Of a DNA stretch of 64,000 nt, positions 54,289-64,000 are shown piece by piece. This DNA comes from Fructilactobacillus myrtifloralis. GTDB lineage: Bacteria > Bacillota > Bacilli > Lactobacillales > Lactobacillaceae. The notes below the pieces were generated by a model that worked only from the letters and a program-made list of their open reading frames with translations, had not been told where the DNA came from and did not search any database. Where the stretch lies: assembly GCF_024029335.1 (NCBI RefSeq), contig NZ_CP097116.1:186001-250000 (forward strand). Reading direction: 5' to 3'. Positions within the stretch are counted from its first letter, which is position 1, and each line of letters opens with the position of its first letter. Position numbers and translations under genes: made by a program.

Positions 54289-54289
<1 letters not shown>
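53822..54289 (+). CDS. lspA: Lipoprotein signal peptidase
   Basis: Membrane aspartyl protease that removes signal peptides from prolipoproteins. Four hydrophobic helices over 155 aa. The two catalytic Asp residues are in GNLIDRLQWGAVTDF and IFNLADCYLTIG. Other family motifs are LLDQLVKHWV and LTNSGAAWSFL. I use ATG 53822, set by CAGGAGG, rather than the upstream in-frame codon. The stop overlaps the rluD start (TAATG). Confidence 0.95.
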
Positions 54290-55753
<1,464 letters not shown>

Positions 55754-55781: not shown

Positions 55782-56873
55782 ATGGTAAAACGCTATTTAT
55801 TGCTCGACGATGGGACGTCCTTTGCCGGCGAGGCATTCGGAGACTTAACCAGTACCACGGGTGAATTAGCCGTCAATACGAACTTGAACTATTATCAAGA
55901 AGCACTAACTGATCCAACTTATCACAACCAGATTGTGACCTTTTTACAGCCCTCGATTGGCAACATTGGGATTAACCCCAAAAACTATGAATCCATTTTA
56001 ACTTCGGCCAAGGGAATCGTGGTTCATCAGAGTGAGAACATTTCTTTTTCCCAACTAAAAGACTTATCGTTAGATTCCTTTTTAAAGGAACGCCACATTC
56101 CGGGAATTTGCCAAATTGATACCCGCCAGTTACAAAAACACGTTCGCGAGCACGATATCAAAAAAGCTAGCATCGTGAATACGAACGATGCGCACGCGTT
56201 TGACCAGTTGCAGGCGGCCGTGCTTAGTAACCAACAAATCCAAGCGGTTGCCACCCCGAAACCATACTTAGTTCCCGGCAGCGGGGTCACGATTGTCGTG
56301 ATTGATTTTGGGCTTCGTGAGTCCATCATCCGGCAGTTGGCCAAACTTAACTGTAATATGATCGTAGTGCCGTGGAACACGAGCTTTGCGGAAATGAAAA
56401 ATCTAGATCCCGAGGGGGTCGTATTATCGTCTGGTCCGGGCTCGCCAGCAGAAATTGATGCGGAAGTGATTGAAAACATTCAAACCATCCAACGGCATTT
56501 ACCGTTGTTTGGGATTGGACTGGGTCACGAATTAATTGCCATTGCCAATGGGGCTAAAGTGGCCCGCATGTCCATCGGGAACTACGGAAGCAATCATCCC
56601 GTTCGCAAAATCATTACTAACGAATTGATTTATCCTAACCAGTCCCAGGACTATGCCATTGTGACTGACTCCATCGCTTCCGATAAGTTAATTGTTACTT
56701 ACAAGGATTTAATTAACGGGACGATTCAGGGGATCAGAAGTCGTGATTATCCGACGTTCTCCGTCCAGTTTTCTCCGGACGGATCTGGTGGCATGGTTGA
56801 TGGGTTTGACCTATTTGAAGAATTTGTTGAAAGCATTCTCGCACACAGGAGGATGGCACATGAAGCACATTAA
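55782..56873 (+). CDS. Degenerate carbamoyl-phosphate synthetase small-subunit homologue without glutaminase triad
   Basis: 363-residue protein with the full CarA layout. The N-terminal CPSase_sm domain opens YLLLDDGTSFAGEAFGDL and contains IGNIGINPKNYESI. A class I glutamine amidotransferase domain follows, with VIDFGLRESIIRQLAKLN and LSSGPGSPAE. The catalytic motif GICLGHQ reads GIGLGHE: codon 246 (56517-56519) is GGA, Gly, where the nucleophile Cys belongs. The His-x-Glu pair of VQYHPE reads VQFSPD (Ser331, Asp333). The glutamine-site SQNHGY reads SQDYAI. It therefore should not hydrolyse glutamine. The frame is intact, full length, has GAGGAGG upstream and overlaps the next gene by 14 bases. 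Calling it carA would overstate its function. Confidence 0.88.
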   Translation: MVKRYLLLDDGTSFAGEAFGDLTSTTGELAVNTNLNYYQEALTDPTYHNQIVTFLQPSIGNIGINPKNYESILTSAKGIVVHQSENISFSQLKDLSLDSFLKERHIPGICQIDTRQLQKHVREHDIKKASIVNTNDAHAFDQLQAAVLSNQQIQAVATPKPYLVPGSGVTIVVIDFGLRESIIRQLAKLNCNMIVVPWNTSFAEMKNLDPEGVVLSSGPGSPAEIDAEVIENIQTIQRHLPLFGIGLGHELIAIANGAKVARMSIGNYGSNHPVRKIITNELIYPNQSQDYAIVTDSIASDKLIVTYKDLINGTIQGIRSRDYPTFSVQFSPDGSGGMVDGFDLFEEFVESILAHRRMAHEAH

Positions 56874-59418
56874 AAAAATCTTGATTATCGGTGGCGGACC
56901 ATCTGATATTGATCATGAAAGTGAACAGGATTCGGCTGCTTTTCAGGCGATTTCGGCTTGGCAACGGCTGGGAATTGAAACGTTTGTAATTGACAATAAC
57001 CCTTATTCCTTATTGTTGCAGGAGACAAATGATGACCATACCTTTGTGCAGAGTCTAACGGCCAAAAACGTTGCCCGAATTTTAAAAACGCACCACATTG
57101 ATGGCATTACGCCGATCTTTGGAACCAAAGCGGCCCTGACGGTCGTCCAGCGGTTGATGAAAAACCAGGTGCTCCAAACGTTACAGGTCCAATTACTCGG
57201 GTTGAATGCGACGAACCTCAATTTGTTTGGAACGGAAGCCGAAGCGTCCGAACAAAATACCGCGCTAGCTAATCGACTGGCTGAAAATAACATTCCGATT
57301 GTAGCGTCGCGGATTATTAGCGATTTTTCGGAATTGCGGAACAACCTGGAAAAAATTCAGTTTCCGATTTCGGTCAAACCACTAAGTACCAACAAGAAGC
57401 GGCAACGCCGGATCTTTAAAAACATGGAAAGTCTTAATAATGAGATTGATGACCTGTTTCAGGAGTCTCCTGATCAGAAACTGTCACTAGAGCGCGAAGT
57501 CGGAAATTATCAAGAAATCGGCATTGTCGCGATTCGGGACGTGGAAGGGAATAAGATGTTGATTTCTTCATTGGAAGATATGAATCCGGTGAAGATTAAC
57601 GCAACCGATTCCGTGATTTTTACCCCGGCCCAAACGCTCAATGATTACTATCTAAAACGGCTCCGGTCGCTTACTTTCGAAGTACTTGATTGTTTAGGAA
57701 TTAAGGGAATTTGTCACCTTCAATTTGCGGTGAATGCTGCAAATGATGAGGTGTATGTCTTGAAGGTGAACCCGGTCTTTAACTCCGAAACGGCCCTAGC
57801 CGCCAAAGCTACCGGGTACCCGTTAGCAAAGGTTGTGGCCTCATTATTGCTTGATATTCCGCTAACCGCGGTGGAACTCCCACCACGCTTTAATCCGTTA
57901 ACCACCATCTTACAACCGTTAAGTGATCACATCGTTGTCAAAATGCCGATTTGGTCATTTGACTACCTTGATATGGCTGATAATCACCTTGGTCCGCACG
58001 CGAAAGCGACGGGCGCGGCCATTGGGGTAGGTCGGAGTGCCGAGGCGGCCTTAATGATTGGCTTACGAAGTTCGCAACCCAGTCCGCAAGATGTTTTACC
58101 GGAATATTCTGACCTCAGCGAAGATGACCTGATTGAACAGTTAATTCATCCAACTGATCAACAAATTTTGATTTTGTTTGAAGCCGTGCGACGGGGTTAC
58201 TCTGCCAGTGACTTGAGTGAGCTCACTAAGATTGACGAATTCTTTTTCGTCATTATGAGCAACCTGTTGGCGGTGATTAACCAGGTACAAACCCATCCTT
58301 GTGATTCGCAAGCGTTATTAATGGGAGATCGGTATGGGTTTGGTAATGGGATGTTTTGTCATTTTTGGAACGTTGATAATGCCACAATCGTGGCCATGCA
58401 ACAAGAATTGCCTCGTTCCAAAACCTATAAAATGATTGATCCCACAGCTGGTGAATTCCCGGAAGCCATTAACTCGTTTTATGGCAGTTATGAGTTTGAA
58501 AGTGATACGAGCCAGTTAAGTAACCAAAGTGCGCTGGTAATCGGGAAGGGGCGAAATCACCTCGGTCCGAATACCGCTGCTGACACGTATACGGCTGAGA
58601 TGTTGATTCAACTGCATAAGTTAGGATACAAAACGATTATTCTCAATAATAACCCGAACTCGGTTTCACTGATTCCTGCAATCAGTGATAAGCAGTACAT
58701 TGAGCCGGTTCAACTCGGTGAGATTTTAAATGTGATTGATCTGGAAAAACCCAAGTACGTATTTTTGCCTGGGAATCGTCACTTTTTAATTCGCGAACTA
58801 CAAAAGTTACAAGGAACCTTTAAGTTAATCGTATTACCACCAGATCAAGAAACCGGAACGATTTACCAAGACCGAGCTGATTTTGCGCTGGACGTCTTAG
58901 TAAGTCCCCAGGCTATTATTCCCATCTCGACGGTTGGTTTTCGTGCTCAAATGGAGGGGGCTGGGAACCAACTGGAGGAACAAACGAGCTATTACGTGCC
59001 GTATGCAGAGCAGCAACTCGACGTGCCGCGGTTGGAACAGTTAGCAACTGCTGAAATTAACAGGCATCCGTTAACCGGACTAATTCAAGTTCTCTTTACA
59101 ATTGACTCCGACGGTAACTACGTGGTTACGGGGATAACCCCGTTACGAATTACGGAGACCATTTTCCTAAATCAAGTGACAGAAATTAATTGGATTCGGG
59201 TGTTAATGCAAATGTACACTGGTCATTTTGATCCGGAACAGTTACGGAAACGGCTTCCCCGAATCAATGCAGCAGGGCACTTTGCCATCATGCAGATTAC
59301 ATTTCCGTTCAAGCATTTGGGGATTAACAACGTCCCCAAACGCCGACGGTATGAGATTGGTGCTAAAATTTCGTTTGGAAATAGTCTGAATGATTCTACC
59401 GATCACCTCTTAAAATAA
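56860..59418 (+). CDS. Degenerate, shortened carbamoyl-phosphate synthetase large-subunit homologue
   Basis: 852-residue CarB relative (CarB is usually about 1060 aa). The first half aligns through the pre-ATP-grasp (KKILIIGGGPSDID), ATP-grasp and oligomerisation regions. The metal/ATP motif EVNPR reads KVNPV (Lys302, Val306). The Gly-Gly nucleotide loop after VRP is replaced by STNKKRQRR, and the GVHTGDS motif reads KINATDS. The second half begins SALVIGKGRNHLGP and keeps NNNPNSVS. Its ATP-grasp domain is shortened (NPR becomes TPL), and no C-terminal allosteric domain is recognisable. AGGAGG sets ATG 56860. I reject the upstream extension to 56743. By known mechanism both ATP sites should be inactive. 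Confidence 0.87.
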   Translation: MKHIKKILIIGGGPSDIDHESEQDSAAFQAISAWQRLGIETFVIDNNPYSLLLQETNDDHTFVQSLTAKNVARILKTHHIDGITPIFGTKAALTVVQRLMKNQVLQTLQVQLLGLNATNLNLFGTEAEASEQNTALANRLAENNIPIVASRIISDFSELRNNLEKIQFPISVKPLSTNKKRQRRIFKNMESLNNEIDDLFQESPDQKLSLEREVGNYQEIGIVAIRDVEGNKMLISSLEDMNPVKINATDSVIFTPAQTLNDYYLKRLRSLTFEVLDCLGIKGICHLQFAVNAANDEVYVLKVNPVFNSETALAAKATGYPLAKVVASLLLDIPLTAVELPPRFNPLTTILQPLSDHIVVKMPIWSFDYLDMADNHLGPHAKATGAAIGVGRSAEAALMIGLRSSQPSPQDVLPEYSDLSEDDLIEQLIHPTDQQILILFEAVRRGYSASDLSELTKIDEFFFVIMSNLLAVINQVQTHPCDSQALLMGDRYGFGNGMFCHFWNVDNATIVAMQQELPRSKTYKMIDPTAGEFPEAINSFYGSYEFESDTSQLSNQSALVIGKGRNHLGPNTAADTYTAEMLIQLHKLGYKTIILNNNPNSVSLIPAISDKQYIEPVQLGEILNVIDLEKPKYVFLPGNRHFLIRELQKLQGTFKLIVLPPDQETGTIYQDRADFALDVLVSPQAIIPISTVGFRAQMEGAGNQLEEQTSYYVPYAEQQLDVPRLEQLATAEINRHPLTGLIQVLFTIDSDGNYVVTGITPLRITETIFLNQVTEINWIRVLMQMYTGHFDPEQLRKRLPRINAAGHFAIMQITFPFKHLGINNVPKRRRYEIGAKISFGNSLNDSTDHLLK

Positions 59419-59467: not shown

Positions 59468-61183
59468 TTACCGGTGGGTCGCGTTGCGCCGCAATTGTTC
59501 GACTAACTGAGGATCGGGAGTAACGTAGACCGTTTTTTGCCCCGTATAATGAACGAGTCCCGGTTTGGCCCCGTTGGGCTTTTTAACCCGTTTGACGGGC
59601 GCATAGTCAACCGGAACGTTCGCAGAATCACGTGCTTTAGAAAAGTAGGCGGCTAGGTTGGCTGCTTCTAAAATGGTTTGGTCGCTAGGGTTAAAACTGC
59701 GAATAATCACGTGGGAACCGTGGATCTTTTGTGTATGCAACCAGGTTTCCCGTTTATCAGCAGTTTTTAACGTGAGTTGATCATTTTGTAAGTTATTTTT
59801 CCCCACCAAAATGACGGTTCCATCGGAAGCAACGAAGCGTTCCGGTTGGCTCACGTGCACCTTTCTCGGTTGCTTTTTGGTCTGACGTTTTAAGTAACCA
59901 GCTTGTTGGAGTTCCGTTTTAATGTCTGCCAGGTTTTCGGGACTGGCCAACTCAATTTGACTTTCAATCGCTTCAAAATAATCGATTTCTGCTTGGGTCC
60001 GCTGCATTTGTTCGGTAATGTATTGGCCGGCATTCTTTTTCTTCTGAAACTGCTTAAAGTACCACTGGGCATTTGCAACGGGGGAGAGCTCTGGTTTCAG
60101 GTTAATTTGGAGGGGATGGTTATTATCATAGAAATTCGGCAGTTCAATGCTGGTCATCCCCGGGTGAACCTGTTGCAGATAAGTCATGAGGACCTCACCT
60201 TTAATCCGATACTGATCGGCATTGGTTGCTTCTGTAGCATCCTGCGCTAGCCGTTTAAGCTTTTTCCGATTCTTTTTTAACTCCGTTCGGGTGACTTGAA
60301 TTAATTGGGCTCCTTGTTCGCGAACCCGTTCACGCTGGACCTTCGTCTGGAAAAAATGATCCAACAGCACGCTTAAAGAAGGGAAGTGATGGTCTGTTTC
60401 CAGGGGCGGGTAGGGGAAGGGGGCAAAGCCTAATTTTCCCTGGGCCGAGAGGGTGGTGACCGGATCTGGAGTTGCAAACCGCTTCCAAAAATCAGTGTAG
60501 TTAGTGGCCAGCGGTTTGCCTGCTTGGTGGAGTGCTTCAGCTAGTGCTAATGAGGTATCCGAACCAAGTCCTTGTAAGGTTTGGCGTAGCTCTGTTGCTA
60601 GACTCTCCACGTTGGGAAAATCATGCTCTAATTGTTCAATGATGCTAAAATCGTGGAGTTGAAACGGATTAAGCAAGTCCTGGTGGGGTGGATTTACGTA
60701 TTTAGAACCAGGGAGGAGGGTCCGATACCGATTTTTATCGGGACCAACGCGCTTGATGGCATCAATGATGTTACGATCGTGAGCTTCTACCAAAATGATG
60801 TTACTGTGGCGGGCCATAATTTCAACAACGACCACCAATTCTTCCAGGTCACCAATTTCATTACGCGTGTTGATGTGCAGGTGGACCACCCGGTCATTAT
60901 CAACCTGATGAATCTCCTTAATGAAACTTCCTTGCAAATGTTTGCGTAGCGTCATGGTAAAATTGTTCGGTACTTTCGGATTCTGAAAGGGAACTTCCGT
61001 GGTTTGGATTCGAGCGTAGGTAGGATTGGCCGATAACAGAACTTGTTGATTCTGTTGCTGGGCGCGGACCGTCATGATGATTTCATGTGGGTACGGTTCA
61101 CTAATCTTAGTAATCCGGCCGCCCGTTAGTTTAGTTTGTAATTCGTTAACCATAGCATGGGTAAAGGAACCATCAAATGACAT
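59468..61183 (-). CDS. rqcH: RqcH, ribosome quality control NFACT protein
   Basis: Recruits tRNA-Ala to stalled 50S subunits and adds C-terminal alanine tails, a bacterial homologue of Rqc2/NEMF. Older annotations call it a fibronectin-binding protein (FbpA). The N-terminal NFACT-N domain opens MSFDGSFTHAMVNELQTKL and includes RITKISEPYPHEIIMTVRA. A coiled-coil lies in the middle (about 290-410). The NFACT-R domain (about 445-550) has FVASDGTVILVGKNNLQND, HGSHVIIRS and YSKARDS-like AYFSKARDSANV. Length is 571 aa. It converges on the carB-like gene. Confidence 0.94.
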   Translation of the reverse strand: MSFDGSFTHAMVNELQTKLTGGRITKISEPYPHEIIMTVRAQQQNQQVLLSANPTYARIQTTEVPFQNPKVPNNFTMTLRKHLQGSFIKEIHQVDNDRVVHLHINTRNEIGDLEELVVVVEIMARHSNIILVEAHDRNIIDAIKRVGPDKNRYRTLLPGSKYVNPPHQDLLNPFQLHDFSIIEQLEHDFPNVESLATELRQTLQGLGSDTSLALAEALHQAGKPLATNYTDFWKRFATPDPVTTLSAQGKLGFAPFPYPPLETDHHFPSLSVLLDHFFQTKVQRERVREQGAQLIQVTRTELKKNRKKLKRLAQDATEATNADQYRIKGEVLMTYLQQVHPGMTSIELPNFYDNNHPLQINLKPELSPVANAQWYFKQFQKKKNAGQYITEQMQRTQAEIDYFEAIESQIELASPENLADIKTELQQAGYLKRQTKKQPRKVHVSQPERFVASDGTVILVGKNNLQNDQLTLKTADKRETWLHTQKIHGSHVIIRSFNPSDQTILEAANLAAYFSKARDSANVPVDYAPVKRVKKPNGAKPGLVHYTGQKTVYVTPDPQLVEQLRRNATHR

Positions 61184-63441: not shown

Positions 63442-64000
63442 TTACTGCTTAACCACTGGCGCATCTTTTGCTTGAACCTCAGCTTGTGGTTGGTCCGGTT
63501 GTGCTTGTTGCCCATTTGCTTGTGCAGCAGGCTGTTCTTCAGCATTATTAGCGGAGTGGTTAACATTACTTTGGTCGTTACCATTTTCCAACAATGCTCC
63601 TGTTTGGGGATCAAAGTTAACGGTTTTACCATTAATTACTTGGGAACCAAACACCTTTTCTCCAGCAGCATTGAGATAATAAGTTTGGCCCGTTTTAGTA
63701 ATAAATTGGTCTTTAACTGGTTCTCCATTATTGGCATCAAAGTAGTACGTCTTACCAGTGGCAGGATTAGTAGCAAAGTCACCCTTAACTTGAATCAACG
63801 TTTGCGGATCAAAGAAATGTGGGTGCCCATTAATTACCTGATAACCGGAAACTAGGTGCCCATCGGCTGCATCGGTATAGAAGAAGCGGTTGCCACCGAG
63901 ATCAATGAATTCCCCTTTACTTTGAATTCCATTGTCGTGGAAGTACTTTTTCTGTCCATCTAGCACCATGATTCCAGTCGTCGCATCACCCTTGTCATCA
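63442..64000 (-). CDS. C-terminal part of a cell-wall/glucan-binding-repeat protein (N-terminus outside the window)
   Basis: The frame is open to the end of the window, so only the last 185 or so residues are seen. They contain at least five aromatic-Gly repeats of the glucan-binding/choline-binding type (for example GKTYYFDANNGEPVKDQFIT, then GQTYYLNAAGEKVFGSQVI). Each has the Tyr-Tyr/Phe-Phe plus Asp/Asn-Gly pattern. The end is a Gln/Ala/Pro-rich tail (about the last 45 residues). Such repeats form the C-terminus of GH70 glucansucrases and other secreted surface enzymes in lactobacilli. The catalytic part is not visible, so the enzyme class is not determined. No LPXTG anchor is present in the visible part. 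Confidence 0.75.
   Translation of the reverse strand, partial: DDKGDATTGIMVLDGQKKYFHDNGIQSKGEFIDLGGNRFFYTDAADGHLVSGYQVINGHPHFFDPQTLIQVKGDFATNPATGKTYYFDANNGEPVKDQFITKTGQTYYLNAAGEKVFGSQVINGKTVNFDPQTGALLENGNDQSNVNHSANNAEEQPAAQANGQQAQPDQPQAEVQAKDAPVVKQ

Follow-up and report, generated by a model that had tools for sequence, protein, structure and literature searches.

The window, a stretch of 64,000 nucleotides from Fructilactobacillus myrtifloralis (GCF_024029335.1, contig NZ_CP097116.1, positions 186,001 to 250,000), contains a five-gene locus in the order rluD-pyrR-carA-carB-rqcH, in which both genes of a carbamoyl-phosphate synthetase (CPS) encode proteins that seem to have lost catalysis and are here called pseudo-CarA and pseudo-CarB. 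The upstream flank is a pseudouridine synthase gene, named rluD by homology (54289..55233, forward strand, with its start placed visually at the ATG in position 54289), whose 3' end overlaps the start of pyrR (55223..55753, forward). The 176 aa PyrR is of the PyrR2 type (pyr attenuation regulator/uracil phosphoribosyltransferase; NCBIfam PyrR 256 bits, cut-off 218) and represents the single PyrR match in this genome at E<=1e-30. It is followed by pseudo-carA (55782..56873, forward), which has an ATG start, no internal stops and 363 codons for amino acids, and which overlaps pseudo-carB (56860..59418, forward, 852 aa) by 14 bases. The convergent downstream flank (59468..61183, reverse strand) is presumably a member of the rqcH/fbpA family, a name given by homology. 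A rluD homologue lies upstream of the pair in nearly all loci parsed, and a rqcH/fbpA homologue occupies the same position in most loci whose stretch reaches that far. The genuine carAB genes of the same genome are found elsewhere, downstream of an rRNA operon (16S, 23S, 5S) at L086:8206-12501 (G000:C1 about 990207-994500), where carA is directly preceded by an RNA element of the PyrR type that scores weakly (35.6 bits against a cut-off of 54). Near the window end, an ORF at 63442-63969 (reverse strand) carries what by eye are cell-wall- or glucan-binding-like repeats.

Pseudo-CarA is readily recognized as a CarA homologue. It matches the Pfam families CPSase_sm_chain (residues 6-131) and GATase (residues 172-349) and scores above the cut-offs of the NCBIfam carA models, TIGR01368/NF009475, in both matches (365.1 vs 221 bits and 317.7 vs 307.35 bits). 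In E. coli CarA, the nucleophile Cys269 works together with His353 and Glu355 in glutamine hydrolysis. Alignment to the E. coli protein places Gly246 (codon 56517..56519, forward) at Cys269, Ser331 (56772..56774, forward) at His353 and Asp333 (56778..56780, forward) at Glu355, confirming the replacements in a full-length, stop-free frame that had been reported in the preliminary description. Further, Glu250 corresponds to Gln273, and Ser288, Gln289 and Asp290 correspond to Asn311, His312 and Gly313. Residue frequencies were taken from tables of unique sequences (107 pseudo-CarA and 114 pseudo-CarB rows, identical sequences removed) that cover the short form of the pair and leave out the divergent forms described below; earlier counts based on 112 CarA and 110 CarB rows contain repeats of some species. 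The Cys269 site is Gly in all 107 unique orthologues and Cys in 40/40 intact Lactobacillaceae CarA proteins. Likewise, the His353 site is replaced throughout (Phe in 59, Ser in 43, Leu in 4 and Asn in 1 of the 107 rows) while His is found in all 40 intact proteins. The third position behaves differently: Asp is present at the Glu355 site in 39/40 intact Lactobacillaceae CarA, the same residue as Asp333, which is therefore not diagnostic of inactivation. The preliminary description had read the exchange of the entire triad as inactivating, and this can be upheld for Cys and His but not for Asp, so that two of the three triad changes appear to be diagnostic of a dead glutaminase. Gln273 is replaced by Glu in 103/107 unique rows, and Gly241, Gly243 and His272 are retained in 112/112 rows (species repeats included).

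A sequencing error or frameshift was considered and rejected, as the Cys-to-Gly exchange is found in all 107 unique orthologues and in all ten genomes searched for the genus, each of which contains the pair. Two orthologues had been flagged for stops; these lie beyond the C terminus and the frames are complete, with lengths of pseudo-CarA from 357 to 365 aa. It should be noted that the strict DNA pattern for GxGLGHE finds only 29/121 genomes because many orthologues carry AxGLGHE, and it was left out of the counts. An AlphaFold model of pseudo-CarA (pLDDT 77, pTM 0.65) has E. coli CarA as its top match with a TM-score of 0.87, a comparison that the preliminary description had proposed.

The finding extends beyond CarA: judged by its residues the CarB partner also looks dead, and a large part of the family has retained the locus. 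In Pfam, pseudo-CarB is matched by CPSase_L_D1, D2 and D3 and, only weakly, by ATP-grasp. Its score against the NCBIfam CarB profile (TIGR01369) is 405 bits, with a cut-off of 1027, and the match stops at profile position 635 of 1052. The second ATP-grasp domain is reduced, the protein is approximately 200 aa shorter than intact CarB, and no C-terminal allosteric domain was detected with the Pfam and NCBIfam profiles. Partial CarB frames below 800 aa were excluded from the residue counts (as in L151; none was found in L106). The Glu299 site, which in the window is Lys302 (codon 57763..57765, forward), is Lys in 111 and Arg in 3 of the 114 unique rows and Glu in 40/40 intact CarB. The arginines of the first site are likewise lost, Arg303 being retained in 0/114 and Arg129 in 1/114 rows, while all 40 intact proteins keep both. 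At the second site, Glu841 is retained in 1/114 and Asn843 and Arg845 in 0/114 rows, and the column of Gly721 in the second ATP-grasp domain is a gap in 113/114; all four residues are kept in 40/40 intact CarB. Some first-site residues remain, with Glu215 and His243 found in 95/110 and Gln285 in 66/110 rows (repeats included). Pseudo-CarB thus has neither the two intact ATP-grasp sites nor the full length of TIGR01369 CarB proteins, and with residues of both sites gone it looks dead too. Its predicted structure is nonetheless that of a CarB protein (AlphaFold, pLDDT 85.7, pTM 0.88), with best matches to E. coli CarB at TM-scores of 0.83-0.85 when normalized to the query and 0.67-0.70 when normalized to the target.

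Selection was analysed by Nei-Gojobori counts in two low-dS genome pairs (G000-G006 and G001-G002), most wider pairs being saturated or nearly so. In these two pairs the dN/dS values were 0.016 and 0.033 (pseudo-CarA), 0.041 and 0.037 (pseudo-CarB), 0.017 and 0.047 (PyrR2), and 0.048 and 0.047 (genuine CarA). Pseudo-CarA is hence under purifying selection like that on genuine CarA. In a further pair (G007-G008), the values were 0.226 for pseudo-CarB, 0.127 for pseudo-CarA, 0.103 for PyrR2 and 0.109 for genuine CarA. Pseudo-CarB evolves faster than pseudo-CarA and PyrR2, and it is also more variable than intact CarB. The orthologue alignment and dN/dS analysis proposed in the preliminary description therefore came out in line with its central claim: with Cys and His lost in 107/107 orthologues, Gly fixed at the Cys site, dN/dS at 0.016 and 0.033 and the fold kept at TM 0.87, pseudo-CarA is best described as a probable maintained pseudoenzyme and not as a gene in recent decay. 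Loss of catalytic residues across the orthologous group, retention of the fold and purifying selection, three features of pseudoenzymes, are found here.

Short-form pseudo-CarB was identified in 66/121 Lactobacillaceae genomes from 21/40 genera, a lower bound that counts short pseudo-CarB only and rests on a score gap, with short forms at 768 bits or more and intact CarB at 728 bits or less. At least one pseudo-CarA was read per genus in all 21 short-form genera, and Cys and His were absent throughout. Among the best 80 of 303 relatives in a one-per-species collection, named carriers include members of Fructilactobacillus, Apilactobacillus, Philodulcilactobacillus, Lentilactobacillus, Levilactobacillus and Secundilactobacillus as well as Lactiplantibacillus plantarum. 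PyrR adjoins the pair in 79 of these 80 loci, the sole one without a PyrR frame beside pseudo-carA being that of Apilactobacillus micheneri (L098). Recent decay was rejected on the combination of this breadth and the dN/dS values. Among 198 genomes sampled across the order, the Lactobacillaceae were the only family with short pseudo-CarB at E<=1e-180, a cut-off too strict to catch divergent forms. In 44 genomes of other families, exactly one CarA was found in 36 and none in 8 (E<=1e-25), and the Cys motif is present in 11/12 outgroup CarA proteins, with a simple motif search returning blank for the twelfth.

More divergent pseudo-CPS genes occupy the same place in further genera. In g4, g9 and g35 they lie beside rluD and/or rqcH and encode a pseudo-CarB of about 800 aa, while in g11, g15, g18, g22, g23, g27, g37 and g40 pseudo-CarB is mostly full-length but degenerate (the g23 frame has 643 aa). 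One g33 genome (G041, L297) retains the CarA Cys, with His353 replaced by Leu and Asn at the third position, and encodes a full-length CarB with active-site losses in both halves. Together, the 21 short-form genera and these 12 with divergent relatives bring the total to 33/40 genera; the rluD-rqcH place of g10, g29, g30 and g31 lay outside the divergent-form survey. Where this place was read in g12, g13, g26 and a second g33 genome, pyrR is accompanied there by intact carA and carB. The full-length pseudo-CarB proteins of g11, g15, g22, g37 and g40 also lack some second-site residues, and these partly dead full-length forms resemble naturally occurring intermediates on the way from an enzyme to a pseudoenzyme. 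In g22, three loci (L285, L298 and L299) are unaltered at the carboxyphosphate (ATP/bicarbonate) site in 10/10 residues checked, with the second site and the glutaminase dead, and their first site may be a remnant that binds bicarbonate or ATP. A uracil permease gene is located directly upstream of pseudo-carA in ten loci (L284, L285, L286, L287, L288, L289, L293, L294, L298 and L299) and, except in L293, lies between pyrR and pseudo-carA; this layout is possibly the older form of the operon. No PyrR was seen at the loci of g3, g6, g18, g27 and g37, and in the sole g18 genome, which is 87% complete, a PyrR search at E<=1e-30 found nothing. Since PyrR is near universal (116/121 genomes), its presence in 66/66 short-form genomes says little about a functional connection.

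Phylogenetic analysis recovers the short-form pseudo-CarA proteins as one clade, with an SH-aLRT support of 99 in a CarA tree from which six near-copies were omitted and 100 in a 77-row CarA tree. In the latter, CarA-only tree, Gly-type CarA as a whole is split over several places, which, if right, implies recurrent origin. An AU test does not reject a single Gly-type clade (p 0.363), and joining CarA to the N-terminal half of CarB unites 39/39 Gly rows and the row of g33, with an SH-aLRT support of 99, in a single clade that adjoins the intact CPS of g33 and g11; this tree was built with a quick method, and long branches and uneven letter composition were flagged. A single origin of Gly-type CarA is thus favoured but not proven. 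Residues 136-152 of pseudo-CarA contain 9/13 apparently newly constrained columns within 17 residues, a density reached in 0/200000 permutations. A new interface at this position was considered and rejected, as the motif also occurs in the intact CPS of g12, g13, g26 and g33 at the same locus, and for this reason the segment is better seen as an inherited signature. Its sharing with the intact proteins agrees with the pair having descended, at its present position, from genes of a pyr operon. We propose that the pair most likely goes back to the CPS of a pyr operon formerly located between rluD and rqcH, and that pyrR, sometimes the uracil permease gene, and carA/carB would be the remnants of this old operon. 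The adjacency of pyrR may itself be such a leftover.

The distribution of genuine CPS genes bears on what the pair could do. Sixteen of the 66 short-form genomes lack a genuine CarB C-terminal half (E<=1e-60), and in 15 of these a second CarA is absent as well (E<=1e-30). Consequently, 15/121 sampled genomes carry the dead pair with neither a genuine CarB half nor a second CarA; one of them is G091, whose coordinates are as in the Levilactobacillus brevis DSM 20054 record. The sixteenth, a 90-contig assembly (G029), has a second CarA match, which may be an orphan CarA or reflect an assembly break. Aspartate carbamoyltransferase (ATCase) above cut-off is absent in 13 of the 16, G029 among them. 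The PyrR RNA element RF00515 is matched in 33/34 genomes at E<=0.01, over the curated score in only 17, and in 3/14 control genomes. Of the 13 genomes that lack CPS and ATCase, ten have a transport or salvage-type gene first in line downstream of the best element: in five it codes for a uracil/xanthine permease, in three for a nucleoside deoxyribosyltransferase, and in one each for a permease of the cytosine/purine type and an MFS transporter, with six of these elements over and four under the curated score; of the other three, G049 has no element, and G029 and G068 have very weak ones only. The pair is thus kept in genomes where PyrR appears to govern only uptake and salvage, and a regulatory role is therefore favoured over a biosynthetic one. 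An element directly before pyrR of the pseudo-CPS operon was seen as one weak case only among the 34 genomes. This element (G052:C1:121494-121581, 40.9 bits, under the cut-off) lies immediately upstream of the pseudo-locus pyrR and may indicate autoregulation in g5.

The PyrR proteins encoded beside the pair form a group of their own. In a PyrR tree, 31 pseudo-locus PyrR are set apart from 8 pyr-operon PyrR (SH-aLRT 98), and the same 31 remain on one side of a branch (support 90) after addition of 20 rows. The two groups are distinguished by one group-specific site only. L. plantarum EGD-AQ4 encodes two PyrR proteins, one at the pseudo-CPS locus and one elsewhere, and in three genomes of g38, taken as the genus of L. 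plantarum since G257 (g38) is near-identical to L. plantarum at the pseudo-CPS locus, the second PyrR lies beside pyrB. A published table lists lp_1782 as pyrR2 and lp_2704 as pyrR1 (PMC7911632), and in L. plantarum PyrR2 is reported to respond to inorganic carbon (Arsene-Ploetze et al. 2006 as cited in PMC3582564). By elimination, the PyrR beside the pseudo-CPS pair in L. plantarum would be PyrR2; it is identical to PyrR1 at 113/176 positions. The available parts of these two papers name no role for the adjoining carA and carB genes, and a literature search yielded no description of a pseudo-CPS, an earlier mention in key L. plantarum papers being still possible.

The loss of CPS chemistry in pseudo-CarA and pseudo-CarB is strongly supported by the residues described above. 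The pair is best read as a pseudo-CPS of retained fold in which each of the three catalytic centres (glutaminase, carboxyphosphate and carbamoyl-phosphate) is short of residues. We hypothesize that it now serves as a regulator in the PyrR circuit, a reading for which we see about equal chances of being right or wrong. The fact that an intact but dead pair usually lies by PyrR, even in species without the first steps of the pathway, suggests a regulatory protein and not an enzyme. We infer that the assembly of the two subunits as in CPS has been kept. The complex would act at the protein level, most likely by binding PyrR2, with the uracil permease as an alternative, less likely binding target. 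Such binding would shift the RNA attenuation of genes for pyrimidine uptake, salvage and synthesis upon a metabolic signal, which in L. plantarum could be the inorganic-carbon state reportedly transmitted by PyrR2. A CPS-derived partner is an attractive candidate for this sensing. In its most specific form, the pair would be a sensor arm of PyrR2 for bicarbonate, formerly a substrate of the CPS, or for a related metabolite, and through it RNA attenuation of pyrimidine genes would follow the supply of CO2. Such a sensor, if real, would account for the inorganic-carbon response reported for PyrR2 of L. plantarum, and the three g22 loci with a carboxyphosphate site intact at 10/10 checked residues and the other two sites dead are consistent with it. 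Against it stands the Glu299-to-Lys exchange in both the window and the genus of L. plantarum, where the bicarbonate/ATP site of pseudo-CarB is altered, and we consider this form of the proposal unlikely.

Other explanations were weighed as well. Loss of the glutaminase alone would leave a CPS I-like enzyme in which CarB continues to synthesize carbamoyl phosphate, with free ammonia as the nitrogen source, and the small-subunit-like domain of human CPS I does have the same fold and matches pseudo-CarA. This enzyme was rejected on the pseudo-CarB residues, and we regard it as almost certainly not the answer: Glu299 is Lys or Arg in 114/114 rows, second-site residues are lost from a protein about 200 aa shorter, and the full-length pseudo-CarB proteins of g11, g15, g22, g37 and g40 are likewise short of second-site residues. 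Slow decay of a redundant operon held in place by inertia is also very improbable. It would agree with the greater variability of pseudo-CarB relative to intact CarB and with its rate, faster than that of pseudo-CarA and PyrR2, whereas the intact frames in the loci parsed, dN/dS values of 0.016-0.047 in the two low-dS pairs, a single clade over 21 genera and retention in small genomes from which CPS and ATCase are both missing (G049, G068 and G093 among them) all speak against it. The pair could instead be a regulatory partner of genuine CarAB, for example in mixed oligomers, given that the CPS folds are kept and that the Pfam oligomerisation domain is still matched in pseudo-CarB. The 16/66 genomes that have the pair and no genuine CarB C-terminal half, 15 of them also without a second CarA, weaken this reading, which appears improbable.

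Two further possibilities, both rather unlikely in our view, deserve more room. One is that the pair is a soluble regulator of uptake by the uracil permease PyrP, with PyrR providing only shared transcriptional control. The permease gene lies between pyrR and pseudo-carA in g11, g22, g23, g40 and 3/4 g15 loci, and a g27 locus has the permease but no pyrR. However, the gap between pyrR (or rluD) and pseudo-carA is too small for a permease gene in loci of the 21 short-form genera. The ancestral order of the pyr operon, as in B. subtilis, is pyrR-pyrP-...-carA-carB, and the neighbourhood of permease and pyrR may therefore simply be inherited. The other is a gain of new chemistry or of a ligand unrelated to pyrimidines, as might be read from the nearly fixed new residues (Gln273 to Glu in 103/107 pseudo-CarA, Glu299 to Lys in 111/114 pseudo-CarB); family and fold searches alike have CPS proteins alone as top matches, and the proximity of pyrR across most of the distribution argues against it as well.

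If the proposed regulator in the PyrR circuit is borne out, the pair would be an unusually clear case of an enzyme turned regulator, in that a complete two-subunit enzyme has lost residues at three active sites and yet is maintained by strong selection in a large part of the Lactobacillaceae. It would also offer a testable explanation of how inorganic carbon might be sensed through PyrR2 in L. plantarum. On the practical side, pseudo-CarA scores above the curated carA cut-offs, and annotation pipelines and metabolic models may therefore credit these organisms with a carbamoyl-phosphate synthesis that is probably absent.

Among known systems, E. coli CarAB (1jdb, 1a9x) is the closest in architecture, with the same folds and gene order; pseudo-CarA is 34-36% identical to E. 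coli CarA over its whole length and superimposes with TM-scores of 0.86-0.87. The E. coli enzyme differs in that Cys269, His353 and both ATP-grasp sites are intact, where the pair has lost the former two along with residues of both sites and pseudo-CarB is about 200 aa shorter. The small-subunit-like module of human CPS I lacks the Cys and has no working glutaminase. This module (5dot, 5dou) shares its fold with pseudo-CarA, but human CPS I is an active ammonia-dependent synthetase, whereas the synthetase residues of the bacterial pair are lost as well. A parallel is the inactive dihydroorotase kept in ATCase complexes and CAD-like proteins (as described in the available parts of PMC6022934 and PMC6245113), likewise a dead enzyme of the pyrimidine pathway retained within a complex. 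That protein sits in an active assembly, while in the pseudo-CPS a whole two-subunit enzyme is apparently dead and has been kept even in genomes without CPS and ATCase.
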